From Nitrospirales bacterium (GTDB taxonomy: Bacteria > Nitrospirota > Nitrospiria > Nitrospirales > UBA8639): 64,000 bases of DNA. Shown piece by piece: positions 30,193-39,476 of the stretch (position 1 is the stretch's first letter; the number at the start of each line of letters is the position of its first letter). The notes below the pieces were generated by a model. It saw nothing but the letters and a program-made list of their open reading frames with translations. It was not told the origin of the DNA and did no database searches. The position numbers were made by a program, and so were the translations under genes. The DNA lies in NCBI GenBank assembly GCA_031315865.1, contig JALDRJ010000002.1:1524001-1588000 (forward strand). The letters are read 5' to 3'.

Positions 30193-30545
30193 TGGTGGAG
30201 GTGGCGGGAATCGAACCCGCGTCCGAAGACATTTAGCGCAACGGCCCTACGTGTGTAGTCGATGATTTGGTATTCGCATTCGCCCACGCCCACCAACCGG
30301 CTTAGAACGTCTGCTAGCCCAGAAAGTTCTTATCCGCCGCCGCTGAGCACCGGCCTTGGACCAGCCTGCAAAGTGACGTCTCTTCCCAGCCCGCAGGCAA
30401 AGATGAGAGAGACGTCGCGGTCAATTAAGCCGCGAGAGCCAATGGTTCGTTGGCACTTAATGGTTTCCCGAAGGTTTAACGAGACTCCGAGAGCTCGACA
30501 CGCTCCGTTGACCTCCTGATCCCCGTCGAAGCCAGTCACCCCCTT
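30193..30545 (-). ncRNA. ssrA: Transfer-messenger RNA (tmRNA)
   Basis: One-piece tmRNA of 353 bases that rescues stalled ribosomes with SmpB. The 5' end GGGGGTGACTGGCTTCGACG pairs with the 3' CACCTCC to form the tRNA-like acceptor; the T arm GGTTCGATTCCC and encoded CCA are present. The resume codon GCC at 30452-30454 opens the tag A-N-E-P-L-A-L-A-A, ending in TAA at 30425-30427. The ALAA end is the usual ClpXP degron. Confidence 0.97.
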
Positions 30546-31784: not shown

Positions 31785-33662
31785 TCAAATAGAAAACTGA
31801 AAGACCGGTTGTGAGCCAACGGCTTCGGCAAGAATGCCTTTTTCTTTCAGCTTGTCGATGATCTGCCGGCTTCGCTCATCAAAATCTTCTGGCCCTGAGA
31901 ACGTCAGTGTGGCGTCAGGCAAGAGGCTTTCTCGTTCCTTCGACATGTAAATGGTGATGACAGGTGTCGGATTGACGAGGGTTTGGATCGCTTGCGCCAC
32001 GGCTCCGGCAGGAAGGGAAAAGGGGTTGGTGGTCGACAACACGATGAGTCCCGTGTCCGTGAGAAGCCTGGCGACTTCGCCATAGCGGCGGACGGCTTCA
32101 TTGGGGTTGGTTTCCCCAATGTCGGCGTCCAACCCGCGACGAAGGTTTGCCGCATCGAGCAAGTAGGCATGCCGACCTTCGGCGACCAGGACCGATTCGA
32201 GTTTCCGGGCCAAAAAGGCCTTTGAGGTGACGTCGGGACCCGTAAACAGGACCACGGCGGCTCTATGGCCAAAGTGTTGCGCGCGTTCTTCTGGGCCGAT
32301 GTCTCCTTTGACCCATGCTGAATCTCGCTCTCGGGCTTCGGTACGGAGTCCTTCCTGTTCGTCCCGCACCATTTCTGTGATGATTCCCCCGCCGGATACA
32401 TCGTATTCGTCCACCAATACAAAACGTCCGGTGTCCTCGAATGACGTATAGGCGTCAAAGGCGAGCGGGGCTTTGGTGCGAAGGGTCAGGTCGGCCACTT
32501 CATTCCGTTGTACGGAAGTCGAGGTTTGCCGATCATCCAGATCATTGGCGTTGACGATGCGGTGAATCGTCACGATTTCGCAGGGGACTTCCCTGGTGGC
32601 GAGCCGTAAGATATAGGTTCGGTGCATTTCGAGGGGGCGTCGGCCAAGCCAGAAGACGTTCGCTCGAAAGCTGGTTGAGACGAAGGGCCCTTCCCCTTCA
32701 TGAGCGGCGATTTGTCCCCGTTCGACGAAAATTTGCTCATCCAGCGTAATGCCGATCGATTGTCCGGACGAGGCGTGAATCGGCGGCGGATCGATGTTAA
32801 ACGCTTCGATGGTCTGGATAGCGGCTGATTTGTTCGAAGGTGCAAACACCAAGCGGTCGCCGATCTTGAGTCGTCCGGCGGTGATTCGTCCGACGAGAAT
32901 CCGGCGCGCATCGAACTTATAGACATCTTGGATCGGTAAGCGCAGCGGCTTTTCAGTTTCCGTGGTCTCGAGGGTGAAGTGCGAGAGCGAGTCCAAGACC
33001 GTCGGGCCGGTATACCACGAGGTTTCCGATGCGTTCGTTGTGATGTTGATGCCCTGTTTCGCGCTTGCCGGGATCACGTATTGAGGGGTGACGTTTAATT
33101 GAGCGAGGAATTCTCGATACTCTTTTTCGATGCCCCGAAACACATCCTCGCGATAGCCGACCAGGTCCATCTTATTCACGACCACGGTCACCTGTTTCAC
33201 GCCGAGCATCGAGAGTAACAGCCCATGTCGTTTGGATTGATCTCTCACCCCTTCCAGGGCGTCGATGATCAACAAGGCCGCTTCGGCCCGGGCGGCCCCG
33301 GACACCATATTTTTGAGGAATTCCTTATGCCCCGGCGCGTCGATGATGATGTATTGCCGGTCACCCCACGTAAAAAAGGTTCGAGCCGTGTCGATGGTGA
33401 TGCCTTGTTGTTGTTCTTCTAGGAACGCATCAAAGAGAAACGCGTACTCGAATTCTTTACCTTGCTGTTTGCAAATGGCTTGGATTTTTTCAATTTTCCC
33501 GACCGGGAGCGTGCCGGTATCGGCATACAGCCGTCCGAGCAGCGTGGATTTGCCGTGATCCACGTGTCCGACGATCACGATGTTCATGGTTTCTTTGACC
33601 GGGGTATCGCGTGAACGGTCGGAAGATTTGGCAGTAGATGAGGCGTGGGTCGCGTCGTTCAT
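31785..33662 (-). CDS. cysN: Sulfate adenylyltransferase subunit 1 with degenerate APS-kinase domain
   Basis: GTPase subunit of ATP sulfurylase. The ATG at 33662 (625 aa) is preferred because it follows cysD by 2 bases; the open frame continues upstream inside cysD. GTPase motifs are intact: GHVDHGKST, DAPGHKEF, NKMDL. Residues about 460-625 match an APS kinase (CysC) layout, but the P-loop reads FTGPDVTSKAF where GxxxxGKS/T is expected, and the DGDNxRxGL region is LLDAANLRRGL. So kinase activity is doubtful. This suits a pathway that uses APS directly, as the neighbouring reductase does. Confidence 0.92.
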   Translation of the reverse strand: MNDATHASSTAKSSDRSRDTPVKETMNIVIVGHVDHGKSTLLGRLYADTGTLPVGKIEKIQAICKQQGKEFEYAFLFDAFLEEQQQGITIDTARTFFTWGDRQYIIIDAPGHKEFLKNMVSGAARAEAALLIIDALEGVRDQSKRHGLLLSMLGVKQVTVVVNKMDLVGYREDVFRGIEKEYREFLAQLNVTPQYVIPASAKQGINITTNASETSWYTGPTVLDSLSHFTLETTETEKPLRLPIQDVYKFDARRILVGRITAGRLKIGDRLVFAPSNKSAAIQTIEAFNIDPPPIHASSGQSIGITLDEQIFVERGQIAAHEGEGPFVSTSFRANVFWLGRRPLEMHRTYILRLATREVPCEIVTIHRIVNANDLDDRQTSTSVQRNEVADLTLRTKAPLAFDAYTSFEDTGRFVLVDEYDVSGGGIITEMVRDEQEGLRTEARERDSAWVKGDIGPEERAQHFGHRAAVVLFTGPDVTSKAFLARKLESVLVAEGRHAYLLDAANLRRGLDADIGETNPNEAVRRYGEVARLLTDTGLIVLSTTNPFSLPAGAVAQAIQTLVNPTPVITIYMSKERESLLPDATLTFSGPEDFDERSRQIIDKLKEKGILAEAVGSQPVFQFSI

Positions 33663-33664
33663 CG

Positions 33665-34465
33665 TCACATGTATCCTTCTTTTCGCAACTGTTCCATCCC
33701 GCGGCCTTCGTCTTGCGCCCGACCGGCGCGTTCGGCGACTTTGCTGTTCCGAAGTTCGATGATGACCTCGTCCACCGTTTTCGAGGTGGATTTCATCGGG
33801 AAGGTACAGGGTTCGCATCCCAGACTGCGGTAACGCTGCCCTGTGCCTTGATCCAGGTATAGATTGTCAAGGAACGGAATGTTTTCAAGTTTGATATATT
33901 CCCAAATATTGATTTCGGTCCAGTCCAAGAGGGGATGAATCCGAATATGAGTGCCGGGCGGGAAGGAGATTTTATATTGATCCCACAGCTCCGGCGGCTG
34001 ATCGCGAAAATCCCATTCATTGTTCTTATCGCGTGGGGAGAAGTATCGTTCTTTGGCCCGTGTGCTATCTTCGTCCGAACGGACGCCCAGGATAATCCCG
34101 GTATACCCCTTTTCTTCGAGTAGGAGTCTCAAGCCTTCCGTCTTCAATGCGGTGCAGCATTCCACGCGTCCTTTCGTATGATTCATCCCTTGGGCCAGGG
34201 CTTTTTTATTTTGGCCCACAACAAGGTTGAGCCGCCATTCACGCGCGAGCCGGTCTCGGTATTCGATCATTTCCGGTATTTTAAAACTCGTGTCCACATG
34301 GAGCAGTGGAAACGGGACATGGCCGAAAAACGCTTTTCGCGCGAGCCACAAGAGGACTGTCGAGTCTTTTCCCATGGACCAGAGCATGCCAAGGTTGTCG
34401 AAGTTTTTATAGGCTTCTCGCAGGATAAACACGCTTTGATCTTCGAGTTGTCTGAGATGGTTCAT
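33665..34465 (-). CDS. cysD: Sulfate adenylyltransferase subunit 2
   Basis: Catalytic ATP pyrophosphatase-type subunit, 266 residues, that adenylates sulfate to APS using energy from CysN. PP-loop-like region [17 protein letters not shown] near the N-terminus and the family sequences [43 protein letters not shown] and [10 protein letters not shown] are clear. Its start overlaps the TrpD2-like stop (ATGA) and cysN begins 2 bases after its end, so the three are tightly coupled. Confidence 0.96.
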
Positions 34466-35535
34466 GCTGTCACCGTTTGTGTTGGAAACTCAATGGATGT
34501 GGTATCGGGGGGCAAGGGAGTTGCGAGCGCGTTCAACTTTTTCCAGGCGAGCCCTGATTCCAGCGCCTTCTCGGCGAGCGGGGTCGCTTGGGCAAGAGAG
34601 GCCGCCTTGCCGGCGGCATAGAGTAAAAGCGCCGCATTGAGAATGACCCATGTTCGATAGTCCCCTTTAACGGTATTTTGCAAGAATCGAACGACGAGAT
34701 CGGCTTCGCGTTCAGGTATCGAGTCTCCAGCGGGCAAAGCCGAATGCCCCATGGACTGAAAGGCTCCGAATGACAATCCGATATCCTGAGGCCGAATCAT
34801 CAGTCTTGTGATGTGGTTATTCCTGAGTTCGCGTGCTGGCGTGGCTGTGGAGACTGACAGCTCTGGTAGTCCTTCGACACCTTGGAGAATCATGACTCGA
34901 GAGGTTCCGATCATATGCAGAGCTTCAACCATCTTGTCTAAATAGGGTGGATGCGCGATGCCGATGACTTGCGAAGAAGTCCGTCCGGGGTTCAACATTC
35001 TGGCGACTTGATGCGCCAGGTTTTGCACGCCGAATTCGTGCCGAAGGTCGAGCAACGCCGCCAAAGGAGGATGATAGGCTTCAAGGTCCACGTATCCGAA
35101 TTGATGCTGTTGTAGCAGATGGAGTGGCGCATCCGTTGGAATCGCCAAATGTCTCAGGATGTCGGATACCGTCGATGAGGCCGCGCGGTTACTGGATCCA
35201 TGGAGGAGGATGGTTGCCCCAGCGGCCGACGCAAGCAGCGCCGCTGCGACGATCGCATGAGAGGTATCATGTTTTTCTCCATAAATCGGCAGGTCTACGG
35301 TTTCGTGAGGAGACGGCACGGCAAGAGGCTCAACGTATTCCCTGGCCGCGACCGTAAATGACGCGAGTTCGGCGATGGATTCTGTCTTGATGCGCATCGC
35401 CATTAAAAAAGCTCCGACTTGTCCTGGGGTCGACTCCGACTCAATGATCGCACGCATCGCGGTCTTGGCTTCATCCCACGTTAAATCCTTTGCGCGCTTG
35501 GTCCCTTTTCCTATTTTGGCGATAAACGATTGCAT
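34462..35535 (-). CDS. TrpD2/YbiB-like phosphoribosyltransferase-fold protein
   Basis: 357 residues resembling anthranilate phosphoribosyltransferase: N-terminal helical domain ([36 protein letters not shown]), then the phosphate-loop region ([18 protein letters not shown]) and [15 protein letters not shown]. The anthranilate-site residues of true TrpD are not evident, and the gene lies within a sulfur operon, so the YbiB/TrpD2 class (nucleic-acid-binding in E. coli) fits better than tryptophan synthesis. It overlaps cysD by 4 bases and follows cysH by 85. Role in sulfur metabolism unknown. Confidence 0.8.
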
Positions 35536-35620: not shown

Positions 35621-36346
35621 TCATGTTTTCGGCGGATGCAATCCGCATTCTGTCTTGGCAAAATTTTTCCAGCGTCCGGAACGAGGGTCTTCTCCAGGCA
35701 TGACTGGGGCTGTGCAATGGGTGCAGCCTATGCTGGGGTAGTTCTGTTCATGGAGTCTGTTGTACGGGACATCGTTCGCATGAATGTATGTCCAGACCTG
35801 CTCCCATGACCAGGCCGCAAGCGGGTTAACTTTCACGAGGTGAAATGTCTCATCCCATTCCAGGAGCCCTGCGTTCGCTCGAGTTGGCGACTGCTCGCGA
35901 CGGATTCCTGTGATCCATGCAGCGTACTGACTGAGTATTCGCCCCAATGGTTCAATTTTCCGATGATGGCAACACTGATCGGGTTGTTTCGTCCATAACG
36001 CTTCCCCGTATGTCGCCGATTGTTCATCGGGTGTGAGCAACGATTTCATCTGGATGACCTGTTCGGGTTTTAGCTGATAGCGCTCGACGATGCGATCGCG
36101 GACTTCAAGAGTTTCAGGAAATAAAAAGTCCGTGTCGAGGTAAAACAGCGTCGCGTCTGGGTGATGTCGGAACATCATGTCGGCCAACACGACGTCTTCG
36201 GCGCCAAAGCTACAAGCAAGAATAATCTTCGGCGAATATTCGTTGAAGGCGTACGCCAAGATTTCTTCGGGTGTGCGTCCCTCAAACTCTTCATTGAGGC
36301 GAGTGAACGATTCCGCATCTGGTGGAGTTTCAGTTGAATGAGGCAT
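35621..36346 (-). CDS. cysH: Assimilatory adenylyl-sulfate (APS) reductase
   Basis: Reduces APS to sulfite using thioredoxin. 241 residues with the PP-loop-like SFGAEDVVLADM and the C-terminal nucleophile Cys234 in ECGLH. It also has the four cluster cysteines Cys125-Cys126 (DQCCHHRKIEPL) and Cys208-x2-Cys211 (IGCTHCTAP) that bind a 4Fe-4S cluster. Those cysteines separate APS reductases from the PAPS-specific CysH of E. coli, so PAPS formation is not needed. It lies 8 bases after the sulfite reductase gene. Confidence 0.95.
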   Translation of the reverse strand: MPHSTETPPDAESFTRLNEEFEGRTPEEILAYAFNEYSPKIILACSFGAEDVVLADMMFRHHPDATLFYLDTDFLFPETLEVRDRIVERYQLKPEQVIQMKSLLTPDEQSATYGEALWTKQPDQCCHHRKIEPLGRILSQYAAWITGIRREQSPTRANAGLLEWDETFHLVKVNPLAAWSWEQVWTYIHANDVPYNRLHEQNYPSIGCTHCTAPVMPGEDPRSGRWKNFAKTECGLHPPKT

Positions 36347-36354
36347 GCGGTCCG

Positions 36355-38847
36355 TTACGCCTCCACTTTTTCCACCAACACTTTATAGTGTTGCGCTGTG
36401 CTATCAAATGCCTCTTCGGCCAAGACTTTGTGTCCATCATTTCGAAGACTCATTGGCACGTTCTTGATGGGGTCGCCGGCGTCCAGCCACACTTCCAGTT
36501 TTTCACCTTCATCCATCATTTCGAGCTTCAGCTTGGTTTTCACATAATTCATGGGACAGGCCACACCGCGCAAGTCGTACACAGTCGCCTCGGACGCTGA
36601 CGCCTCGACTGGATTCTCCTCTGGCTGCGTGGCGCTCGAGGCCTGCTCGGTTCCCATTTCGACCGGGGCGAGCTTAAGGTCTTGCCCGATTTCATCAGTC
36701 GCAAGGCGGCAGGCGCCCACGAAATCCCGGGCGAAGGCCAGTTTGTTCTGAAGAAATTCAGTGGACGCGTCTTTTGACCCTATGTCGTCCATTTGGGCGG
36801 TAAGATTGCGATAGGCTTCAGGAAGCAAACCCTTGGCGGCGACGAGTTGATCGAATTCCGCCAACGTATCGGCGTCGGTGTTCGGGTCGGTTCCTTCGGT
36901 GACAAGAATGGCTTTGGCTCCTGCAATCACGGCCCGATAGGCCTTATTGATCGCGATGCCATATTGATGTTTTTCCGACAAAATTCTCGCATGGTAGAGC
37001 TCTTGTTCGGCTTCGAGTATTCGATTGTCGATCATTTCCAGGGCGCCGCCGGCGCATTCTCCAGGCCCTAAATCTTCGACGGAGAACTCTTGATCGGCTT
37101 CCCAGTCGATATAATACTCCGGGCTTTCTTCATAGGCAGGCAGCAACGTGTGCGGGATCAGTTCTTCCTTTAACTTGAGTTTGCCGACTCGGGTGATGAA
37201 GGCGTGCAGGCTTTCGCCGTCCTTCCGTTCTTGACGATAAAAGTCCAAGATGTGCTGGATGGCCGCTGGCACGTTCTTCGCCGGAACTTTGACGATTAAT
37301 TGTCCGATTTTGGCGGTGCCGTTCACTTGTCCGCCAAGATGCAGTTCGTACACGGGCGCGATGTGGTCTCCAATGCGTTTTCCAACTCCATGGAGTCCGA
37401 TGGTCGCGATATGATGCTGGGCGCAAGAGTTGTGGCATCCACTGATTTTGATATCGACGCCTTCGAGATCTTTCGGTGTTTTCCCTGCCGGAAAGACTTC
37501 AGCCAGCGCACGGGCAAGGCCCTTTGATGAGGTAATGCCCAACCCACATGTGTCGGTGCCGGGGCATGCGACGATGTCTTCCACGTCTTCGGCTCCCGGC
37601 GCATGGAGGTTGTGTTCTGTCAGCGACTGGTAGAGCTCATGGATACGAAGCTCGGGAATCCATCGAATAATCATGTTTTGATTGATCGTGGTGCGAATAT
37701 TTCCGTTGGCATACGTCTCTGCAAAATCAGCCAGTGTGTACATTTGTTCGGTGGTCATATCTCCCCAAGGCAATTTAATGACAGCCGCCAGGAATCCGGA
37801 TTGCCGTTGGGTGATCACATTGGTCTTTTTCCAGAGATCAAAATCCGACGAAGCGCCATTCGATCCGTTGGCGCCTTGACCTGTGTGGTGGCCGTTTGAT
37901 GATGCTCCATTGCCATTTTTGGTCGGCATGATGAGAGGCGCTTCATCCTGGTACGGCAAGATGGTGAGCGTTGATGTCGTCCCTCCTGACTTCAGGAGGA
38001 GGTCGTAGGCTTCCCGCCACTGCCGCTTGAATTCATCGAATCCGAGCTTGTCAATCACGAATTTCATGCGCGCTTTGCTTCGATTTTTGCGATTGCCGAG
38101 ATTGTCGAATACCTTGATGCAGGCTTCGATTGACGGGATCAATTCCTCCATGGGAACAAATTCGCGCAGTAGTTTGGCCATCCGAGGCGTCGATCCGAGC
38201 CCGCCTCCGACGACCATTCGAAACCCGATCGTGCCTTCGGCATTGCGGGTGGCGAGTAGTCCAACATCATGAATGGGGGTTAAGGCGCAGTCCGATTGGC
38301 AGCCGGAAAACGCGATTTTAAACTTGCGTGGAAGACTCTGCGTCAACGGATTCCGCAGTAAATGTTGAGCGACCGTATTGGCATACGGCGTGACATCAAA
38401 CACTTCTCCCGGGCAAATGCCGGCTAATGCGCAAGCCGTGACATTGCGGACTGTATTCGCGCAGGCTTCGCGGGTCGTAAGGCCGACTTCCGCCAGCTTT
38501 CTCATGATGGTGACGACTTGCGGCAGCGGAACAAAGTGCAATTGAATGTCTTGTCGCGTCGTGACATGCCCCACGCCCGTCGCGTACGTGTCGGCAAGCT
38601 CGGCGACGCGGCGAAGCTGGTTTGCCGTCAGGCCGCCAAAGGGAATTTTGATCCGGACCATCTGTACGTCCGCTTGACGTTGGCCGTAGATTCCAAACTG
38701 CAGCCGGAAAGGTTTAAACACCTCGACGGGTGTTTCGCCATTTTGAAGCCGGGTCACTTCATCTTCGAACGTCTCGATTTCTTCGAGAATTTCCTGAGGA
38801 ATCGGCATCGTCTGTATTGCAGGTCGGGTCGCTGGTGCAGAACTCAT
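36355..38847 (-). CDS. Sulfite/nitrite reductase haemoprotein with two cluster motif sets and a C-terminal TusA domain
   Basis: 830 residues. Two ferredoxin-like plus siroheme-domain halves are joined by a Gly/Asn/Ser linker (about 310-335). Each half carries a full CX5C...CX3C set: Cys139/145/183/187 and Cys428/434/471/475. A helical HEPN-like region (about 605-720) then leads to a TusA domain (754-830) with Cys764 in GVACPMNYVK. Classical monomeric sulfite reductases keep cluster cysteines only in the second half. Expected to reduce sulfite to sulfide, with TusA handling a persulfide; nitrite as substrate is possible. GGAGG precedes the ATG. First structural gene of the cys operon. Confidence 0.9.
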   Translation of the reverse strand: MSSAPATRPAIQTMPIPQEILEEIETFEDEVTRLQNGETPVEVFKPFRLQFGIYGQRQADVQMVRIKIPFGGLTANQLRRVAELADTYATGVGHVTTRQDIQLHFVPLPQVVTIMRKLAEVGLTTREACANTVRNVTACALAGICPGEVFDVTPYANTVAQHLLRNPLTQSLPRKFKIAFSGCQSDCALTPIHDVGLLATRNAEGTIGFRMVVGGGLGSTPRMAKLLREFVPMEELIPSIEACIKVFDNLGNRKNRSKARMKFVIDKLGFDEFKRQWREAYDLLLKSGGTTSTLTILPYQDEAPLIMPTKNGNGASSNGHHTGQGANGSNGASSDFDLWKKTNVITQRQSGFLAAVIKLPWGDMTTEQMYTLADFAETYANGNIRTTINQNMIIRWIPELRIHELYQSLTEHNLHAPGAEDVEDIVACPGTDTCGLGITSSKGLARALAEVFPAGKTPKDLEGVDIKISGCHNSCAQHHIATIGLHGVGKRIGDHIAPVYELHLGGQVNGTAKIGQLIVKVPAKNVPAAIQHILDFYRQERKDGESLHAFITRVGKLKLKEELIPHTLLPAYEESPEYYIDWEADQEFSVEDLGPGECAGGALEMIDNRILEAEQELYHARILSEKHQYGIAINKAYRAVIAGAKAILVTEGTDPNTDADTLAEFDQLVAAKGLLPEAYRNLTAQMDDIGSKDASTEFLQNKLAFARDFVGACRLATDEIGQDLKLAPVEMGTEQASSATQPEENPVEASASEATVYDLRGVACPMNYVKTKLKLEMMDEGEKLEVWLDAGDPIKNVPMSLRNDGHKVLAEEAFDSTAQHYKVLVEKVEA

Positions 38848-38953: not shown

Positions 38954-39400
38954 TCAAATGTGGTACATCAACGCCCGTTTATCTTCAAGGTCTTGGTATT
39001 GATCGACTAAACTTTGTAACGAGATCGAGCGAAGAATTGCAAGTTCAGCATGATGCAATCGATCGAAGATGTCCGATAAAAGCTCTTCGTGCGCATTTTT
39101 CGGATGGCCATTGATTGAACCATTGAGAGTTTGGCGGGTCGTCCCATTCATGGCCTTCACGATTTCCGCTAAAGAAATCTCGCCTGGCTCCTTACTAAGG
39201 ATGTACCCGCCTTGAGCTCCACGCTGGCTAGTCACGAGTCCCGCCTGTTTGAGTCCGCTGAGCACATGTTCGATAAAGCGGGCCGGGATGGCCTGGCTCT
39301 GCGCGATAGACTTGGCCTGAACCGGTGAAGTGCTGTGTCGAAGTCCCAGTTCCACGGTAGTCATCACGGCATATCGTACTTTTTGAGAAAATTGTGACAT
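38954..39400 (-). CDS. Rrf2-family transcriptional regulator without cysteines
   Basis: 148 residues. Winged-helix domain of the Rrf2/IscR/CymR family (KVRYAVMTTVELGLRH, IPARFIEHVLSGLKQAGLVTSQRGAQGGYIL). The whole protein has no cysteine, so it cannot bind an Fe-S cluster as IscR or NsrR do. That and its place at the head of the sulfate-assimilation genes fit a CymR-like regulator of cysteine synthesis. The coupled promoter carries a perfect palindrome. Confidence 0.9.
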   Translation of the reverse strand: MSQFSQKVRYAVMTTVELGLRHSTSPVQAKSIAQSQAIPARFIEHVLSGLKQAGLVTSQRGAQGGYILSKEPGEISLAEIVKAMNGTTRQTLNGSINGHPKNAHEELLSDIFDRLHHAELAILRSISLQSLVDQYQDLEDKRALMYHI

Positions 39401-39424: not shown

Positions 39425-39438
39425 ATTCCGATCGGAAT
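39425..39438. promoter_or_regulatory. Palindromic operator, probable Rrf2 site
   Basis: Perfect 14-base palindrome ATTCCGATCGGAAT just downstream of the -10 box, covering the likely transcription start. The GGAATT flank resembles CymR-type boxes. Confidence 0.75.
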
Positions 39439-39446
39439 TAAGTTTA

Positions 39447-39476
39447 ATTGTATGATGTGATACAGAGAGCTGTCAA
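39447..39476 (-). promoter_or_regulatory. Promoter of the Rrf2 gene and probably the cys operon
   Basis: On the minus strand TTGACA (39471-39476), an 18-base spacer and TACAAT (39447-39452). The only strong promoter upstream of the operon. Confidence 0.8.

Follow-up and report, generated by a model that had tools for sequence, protein, structure and literature searches.

The sir locus

We analyzed a 64,000-nt stretch of DNA (the window, to which all coordinates refer) from a Nitrospirales bacterium (assembly GCA_031315865.1, contig JALDRJ010000002.1, positions 1,524,001-1,588,000 of the forward strand). Within it, sulfate-assimilation genes lie on the minus strand in the order Rrf2 regulator, sir, cysH, trpD2-like, cysD, and cysNC (Table 1). 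In these bacteria, sir is usually labeled just as a sulfite reductase or nitrite/sulfite reductase. A preliminary description had read it as a sulfite reductase with two complete cysteine motif sets, a HEPN-like region and a TusA tail, and translation and alignment bear out both the reading frame and the residue numbers given for the cysteines (Cys139/145/183/187 and Cys428/434/471/475). From N- to C-terminus, the chain runs from an N-half reductase repeat through a linker of low model confidence to a C-half repeat. A GPGECAG loop follows, then a HEPN-fold domain that a disordered linker connects to the terminal TusA domain. Pfam recognizes two stretches each of NIR_SIR and NIR_SIR_ferr. An AlphaFold model of the product (mean pLDDT 88.7, pTM 0.78), for which four alignment rows from plasmid records were left out, contains the two-half, HEPN, and TusA folds. 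By Foldseek, the model spans both halves of Mycobacterium tuberculosis NirA (TMt 0.77), and spinach and tobacco NiR, maize SiR, and E. coli SiRHP also match it over both halves.

Table 1. Features of the sir locus, in window coordinates
Feature	Position	Strand	Basis
cysNC, sulfate adenylyltransferase large subunit fused to APS-kinase-like domain	31785..33818	-	Pfam, NCBIfam
cysD, sulfate adenylyltransferase small subunit	33665..34465	-	Pfam, NCBIfam
trpD2/YbiB-like glycosyltransferase family 3 gene	34462..35535	-	Pfam, NCBIfam, neighbor conservation
cysH, APS/PAPS reductase, CC...CXXC cluster motif and ECGLH	35621..36346	-	Pfam, NCBIfam, sequence
sir, two-half sulfite reductase with HEPN-fold and TusA domains, 830 aa	36355..38847	-	ORF, Pfam, model, Foldseek
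TusA domain, ~residues 754-830; CPMN motif, C764 at 36556-36558	36358..36588	-	Pfam, Foldseek, alignment
HEPN-fold helical domain, ~residues 601-720	36688..37047	-	Pfam (610-688), Foldseek (2hsb)
GPGECAG loop with C598, low model confidence	37048..37068	-	Alignment, model
C-half reductase repeat, ~residues 340-565	37153..37830	-	Pfam, alignment
C-half CX3C (C471, C475), predicted catalytic-cluster ligands	37423..37437	-	Alignment
C-half CX5C (C428, C434), predicted catalytic-cluster ligands	37546..37566	-	Alignment
N-half reductase repeat, ~residues 44-290; bears R65, R98, R134, K175, K177	37978..38718	-	Pfam, alignment
N-half CX3C (C183, C187)	38287..38301	-	Alignment
N-half CX5C (C139, C145)	38413..38433	-	Alignment
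Rrf2-family regulator upstream of sir	38954..39400	-	Pfam/NCBIfam, conserved neighbor
Palindrome AATTCCGATCGGAAT, likely Rrf2 operator (predicted)	39425..39439	-	Sequence, relatives, genome search
Promoter-like TTGACA-18-TACAAT upstream of operator	39447..39476	-	Sequence

Only a few bases separate sir from cysH, and the trpD2-like gene and cysD overlap. The arrangement Rrf2-sir-cysH-trpD2-cysD recurs in Nitrospirales contigs, including that of Candidatus Nitrospira defluvii, and throughout the order the trpD2/YbiB-like gene holds its place between cysH and cysD. Nitrosomonadaceae and some gammaproteobacterial relatives have the order sir-cysH-cysD-cysN, and Flavobacterium has cysH-cysD-cysN-sir. 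The same genome encodes a siroheme synthase and a cysteine synthase as well as a NirA-type paralogue distinct from Sir; a search of the genome gave no match to CysJ. Among 60 genomes of the phylum, dsrB occurs in 29 and this Sir in 24, with both in none, a pattern that does not amount to a test on independent samples because the genomes are related. The operon, the two synthases, the NirA paralogue, and the lack of overlap with dsrB in these genomes point to a role in assimilatory sulfite reduction. That the enzyme is mainly an assimilatory nitrite reductase seems to us very improbable: among solved sequences, those of plant nitrite reductases and NirA are closest to it, activity on both sulfite and nitrite is frequent in siroheme enzymes, and some homologues are annotated as nitrite reductases, but across the whole order the gene belongs to a sulfate-assimilation operon and the NirA-type paralogue of the same genome, with N at the K177 position, is a separate protein.

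The regulator upstream of sir is Rrf2/CymR-like by NCBIfam. Of 60 relatives, 32 carry a palindrome similar to its putative operator upstream of Rrf2 (vs. 0.25% of shuffles), and a search of the genome gave a single copy of the exact site. Since the palindrome is both conserved and unique, the regulator probably controls this operon alone. The window also contains a tmRNA gene (30193-30543) with the tag ANEPLALAA.

Two cluster motifs and the catalytic site

Work on Fsr showed that four basic sulfite-binding residues are conserved across sulfite reductases, together with an Arg that is replaced by Thr in DsrA (PMC10229431). Their aligned equivalents in Sir are R65, R134, K175, and K177 (sulfite-binding) and R98 (the aSir-type Arg), all of which are in the N-half and invariant among 51 dereplicated Nitrospirota sequences (51/51). 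In the alignment, these basic residues complete the site that has its cluster on the C-half, where C428, C434, C471, and C475 are each present in 51/51 of the same sequences and C475 is the counterpart of the siroheme-bridging Cys. The best reading of the alignment would thus be a single catalytic siroheme-[4Fe-4S] center with its cluster held by C428/434/471/475. At the site of the N-half cluster, the pseudo-symmetric counterparts of the basic residues are V356, E423, G463, D465, and N389; because none of these is basic and all vary among relatives, a double catalytic site can be rejected. The preliminary description had offered a double-siroheme, DsrAB-like pseudo-dimer in one polypeptide as one reading. 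The half-for-half layout survives, since aligning each half with DsrA and DsrB from the same phylum pairs the N-half with DsrA and the C-half with DsrB in site function. The second siroheme active site does not, as sulfite-binding basic residues occur at one site only.

A second tetrapyrrole need not be catalytic, and DsrAB is the known case of such an arrangement (PMC10229431). Sir could correspondingly be a single-chain DsrAB-like enzyme whose N-half cluster carries a non-catalytic siroheme or sirohydrochlorin, as at the DsrAB structural site. The N-half has its full complement of cysteines, among them C187, which matches the siroheme-bridging Cys; DsrA, whose site holds the structural tetrapyrrole (PMC10229431), has the same set; and R385 of the C-half is retained in 49/51 Nitrospirota sequences. 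Against this, the Nitrospirales C-half has no basic residues at the positions matching R98, R134, R174, K175, and K177, while DsrB has Arg at two of them. At the equivalents of E. coli SiRHP R113, R117, and K217, DsrB aligns with Arg at each, whereas the C-half of Sir has only the first (R385); the K217-equivalent position is R or K in some relatives outside Nitrospirales. The comparison of the C-half with DsrB argues, though not decisively, against a structural tetrapyrrole beside the N-half cluster of Sir, and we regard this alternative as unlikely.

As the preliminary description had claimed, both halves keep a full CX5C...CX3C set, and the N-half set proves to be conserved in Nitrospirota and several other phyla. 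C139, C145, C183, and C187 are present in 51, 49, 51, and 49 of the 51 dereplicated Nitrospirota sequences, respectively, and all four together in 49, in an alignment in which only 24% of core columns reach 95% conservation. The complete set is also found in Nitrosomonadaceae (including Nitrosospira briensis), gammaproteobacterial bins, Myxococcota, Acidobacteriota, SAR324, Latescibacterota, Nitrospina-labeled bins, and one Omnitrophota bin. Conservation on this scale rules out an origin of the N-half cysteines by chance. The Bacteroidota enzymes have none of the four (0/4), and CysI-type outgroups likewise align without the set; in Nitrospirota itself, two relatives have lost two of the four cysteines, giving C-S-C-H, and a third has CX4C in the N-half. 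Given these losses, the N-half cluster would appear to be dispensable to the basic reaction. That the second cluster depends on HEPN or TusA was likewise ruled out, because Myxococcales and one Omnitrophota form carry the cysteines with neither domain.

Partial sets take recurrent forms. C-S-C-H or C-A-C-H occurs in the N-half of Thermus, other Omnitrophota, and one Nitrospirota family (six sequences of these types), and the repeated Cys-to-His change at the bridging position may point to another metal site. The Nitrospirales NirA paralogues (13 sequences) retain three of the four N-half cysteines as C-x-C-C, with S, T, N, or A in second place, and NirA-like proteins of a haloarchaeon and a planctomycete have the same three-Cys site.

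We infer that the N-half set of Sir holds an auxiliary [4Fe-4S] cluster that would be redox-active or structural. It is rather improbable that these cysteines hold no cluster and instead form a zinc or structural site, form disulfides, or persist as a chance remnant. The persistence of partial sets (C-x-C-C, C-S-C-H) in relatives and the ability of the fold itself to do without a cluster would fit that explanation; however, the complete, canonically spaced motif recurs across several phyla in register with the homologous C-half ligands, and it has been lost clade-wise rather than in a scattered manner.

On a reductase tree computed without the four cysteine columns, the intact N-half state requires six changes vs. 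~30 with shuffled labels. In a tree of the separate halves, made by a quick method and with several long branches, the N-halves form one group and the C-halves another (SH-aLRT 94 and 96), indicating that the duplication is older than the spread of cysteine-bearing and cysteine-less forms. As the duplication came first, retention with repeated loss is simpler than regaining four homologous cysteines, which favors the view that the N-half set was retained from a two-cluster ancestor.

The C-terminal loop, HEPN-fold, and TusA domains

C598 of the GECAG motif is present in 130/130 HEPN-bearing relatives, with or without the N-half cysteines or TusA, and short relatives that have no HEPN domain terminate at this motif. 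In the model, the GPGECAG loop has a mean pLDDT of 58, as would be the case for a loop that is mobile or is ordered by a cofactor. The HEPN-like region noticed earlier was confirmed by Pfam (residues 610-688, 24.5 bits against a cut-off of 22) and by a Foldseek match to 2hsb (TMt 0.80, rmsd 2.2). A role for this domain as a ribonuclease was ruled out, as the Rx4-6H motif is not conserved: in the alignment of relatives, neither R nor H is found among the conserved HEPN positions, and the query has a single RILSEKH.

The TusA domain is equally clear, with a Pfam score of 60.6 bits over residues 757-827 (cut-off 28.6) and a Foldseek match to 3lvj_C (TMt 0.81). C764, the cysteine singled out in the preliminary description, is invariant (45/45) and lies in a CPMN motif, with CPxN in relatives, rather than in the usual CPxP. 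TusA is fused in most full-length Nitrospirota matches, order-wide in Nitrospirales and also in other classes of the phylum, and the fusion was further detected in Nitrospina-labeled bins and, weakly, in gammaproteobacterial bins. The domain is therefore lineage-wide, and confinement of the fusion to one species is ruled out by this occurrence. In one family, TusA is a separate gene directly downstream of the reductase. Being either fused or adjacent, TusA is apparently linked in function to the reductase.

The preliminary description had suggested that sulfide or persulfide is handed directly to this domain. TusA carries sulfane sulfur, and free sulfide is the product of full six-electron sulfite reduction; free sulfide would therefore have to be oxidized before it could load TusA as a persulfide. 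DsrC is a Cys-bearing carrier that takes intermediate sulfur from the siroheme of DsrAB. By analogy, one might speculate that a siroheme-bound intermediate at or above S(0) could load TusA, and a hand-off of sulfur to C764, perhaps via C598, is a plausible possibility. Alternatively, the TusA domain may take no sulfur from the reductase. It would then be a carrier in its own right, with a cysteine desulfurase as its sulfur source, and the fusion would serve solely for co-regulation or dimer contacts. We give this possibility a little less than an even chance. E. coli TusA is loaded by IscS, CPMN is not the canonical CPxP, the domain is missing from some HEPN-bearing relatives (Flavobacterium and Nitrosomonadaceae, for example), and a stand-alone TusA-like gene is present elsewhere in the same genome; on the other hand, fusion, or downstream adjacency when the two are split, has been kept across the phylum, and C764 does not vary in any of the 45 sequences.

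Function and comparison with known systems

Taken together, the sequence and the model suggest that Sir is probably an assimilatory sulfite reductase, likely ferredoxin-dependent, with one catalytic siroheme-[4Fe-4S] center and an auxiliary N-half cluster. Ferredoxin as the donor is suggested indirectly by the missing CysJ match and the cys operon. The neighboring CysH would supply sulfite, which Sir would reduce by six electrons to sulfide. Siroheme and sulfite would be held by R65, R98, R134, K175, and K177 of the N-half and the catalytic cluster by the C-half, while C139/145/183/187 would bind an auxiliary [4Fe-4S] cluster, redox or structural, and no second sulfite-reducing siroheme. The HEPN-fold domain could act as a scaffold, and C764 of the TusA domain may accept or channel some of the sulfur, with C598 on the flexible loop as a possible way station. 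Nitrospira-type bacteria thus appear to make sulfide for amino acids with a sulfite reductase that has two cluster sites, and the fused or adjacent TusA suggests a candidate route from sulfite to sulfur-carrier proteins.

A more elaborate version, in which two tetrapyrrole-[4Fe-4S] centers (one catalytic and one structural or electron-storing) are present and C598 relays partly reduced sulfur from the siroheme to C764 within one chain, strikes us as quite improbable. If it were true, assimilated sulfur would leave the enzyme bound to protein in the sulfane state, in addition to free sulfide, and the enzyme would be a survivor of the ancestral two-site type from which assimilatory sulfite reductases descend. 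On the current view (PMC10229431), these reductases arose by duplication and fusion, after which one siroheme-[4Fe-4S] site of the two disappeared. A clade of wide distribution, which includes major nitrifiers and bears the second cluster motif, offers living material for testing that loss, and the partial cysteine sets of the NirA paralogues resemble its graded stages. With both cluster sites kept and a sulfur carrier fused, the Sir described here may represent an extant intermediate stage of sulfite reductase evolution.

Against the NCBIfam equivalogs CysI, Sir, NirA, and ferredoxin-nitrite reductase, the query falls below every curated cut-off (301 vs. 523, 242 vs. 594, 195 vs. 457, 135 vs. 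732, and 134 vs. 757 bits for the siroheme-reductase models). It also falls below those for dsrB (79 vs. 341.5 bits) and dsrA (41 vs. 392.9 bits), and it is a single chain. In the literature searched, which covered few subscription journals, we found no description of a sulfite reductase-HEPN/TusA fusion or of a two-cluster assimilatory enzyme.

Sir has the features of the two-half aSir/NirA type, namely fused NIR_SIR_ferr and NIR_SIR repeats, C-half ligands, and the four basic residues plus R98; the N-half ligands usually described as lost in that type are present, their loss being no strict criterion. Like NirA, plant NiR and SiR, and E. coli SiRHP (1zj8, 2akj, 5h92, 1aop), Sir has two fused halves with a common core fold (TMt 0.71-0.79), the C-half cluster motif, and all sulfite-binding residues, but those enzymes have no complete N-half motif, HEPN-fold tail, or TusA. 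Bacteroidota, Thermus, and proteobacterial CysI types share the homologous two-half core, with the N-half cysteines lost or partial and no TusA; of these, the Bacteroidota enzymes share GECAG and HEPN with Sir, whereas the Thermus enzyme stops at GECA. Fsr resembles Sir in its assimilatory-type active-site residues and CX5C...CX3C motif (PMC10229431), but is a single-half homodimer with an F420H2 oxidase module. With DsrAB, Sir shares two cluster motifs per pseudo-dimer; unlike DsrAB, it is one chain rather than two and lacks the inserted ferredoxin domain, for which the query gave no Pfam match. In the alignment, Sir has the aSir-type Arg98 in place of the DsrA Thr and a canonical C-half CX5C in place of the DsrB CXnCCX3C, and the DsrB arginines for the second tetrapyrrole are mostly missing. 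DsrC is a Cys carrier and the TusA domain a candidate one, a likeness of mechanism only, since DsrC is a separate and unrelated protein and TusA is part of the same chain. Finally, the TusA domain shares its fold and a conserved Cys followed by Pro with TusA, YedF, and YeeD, but is fused to a reductase and has CPxN rather than CPxP.
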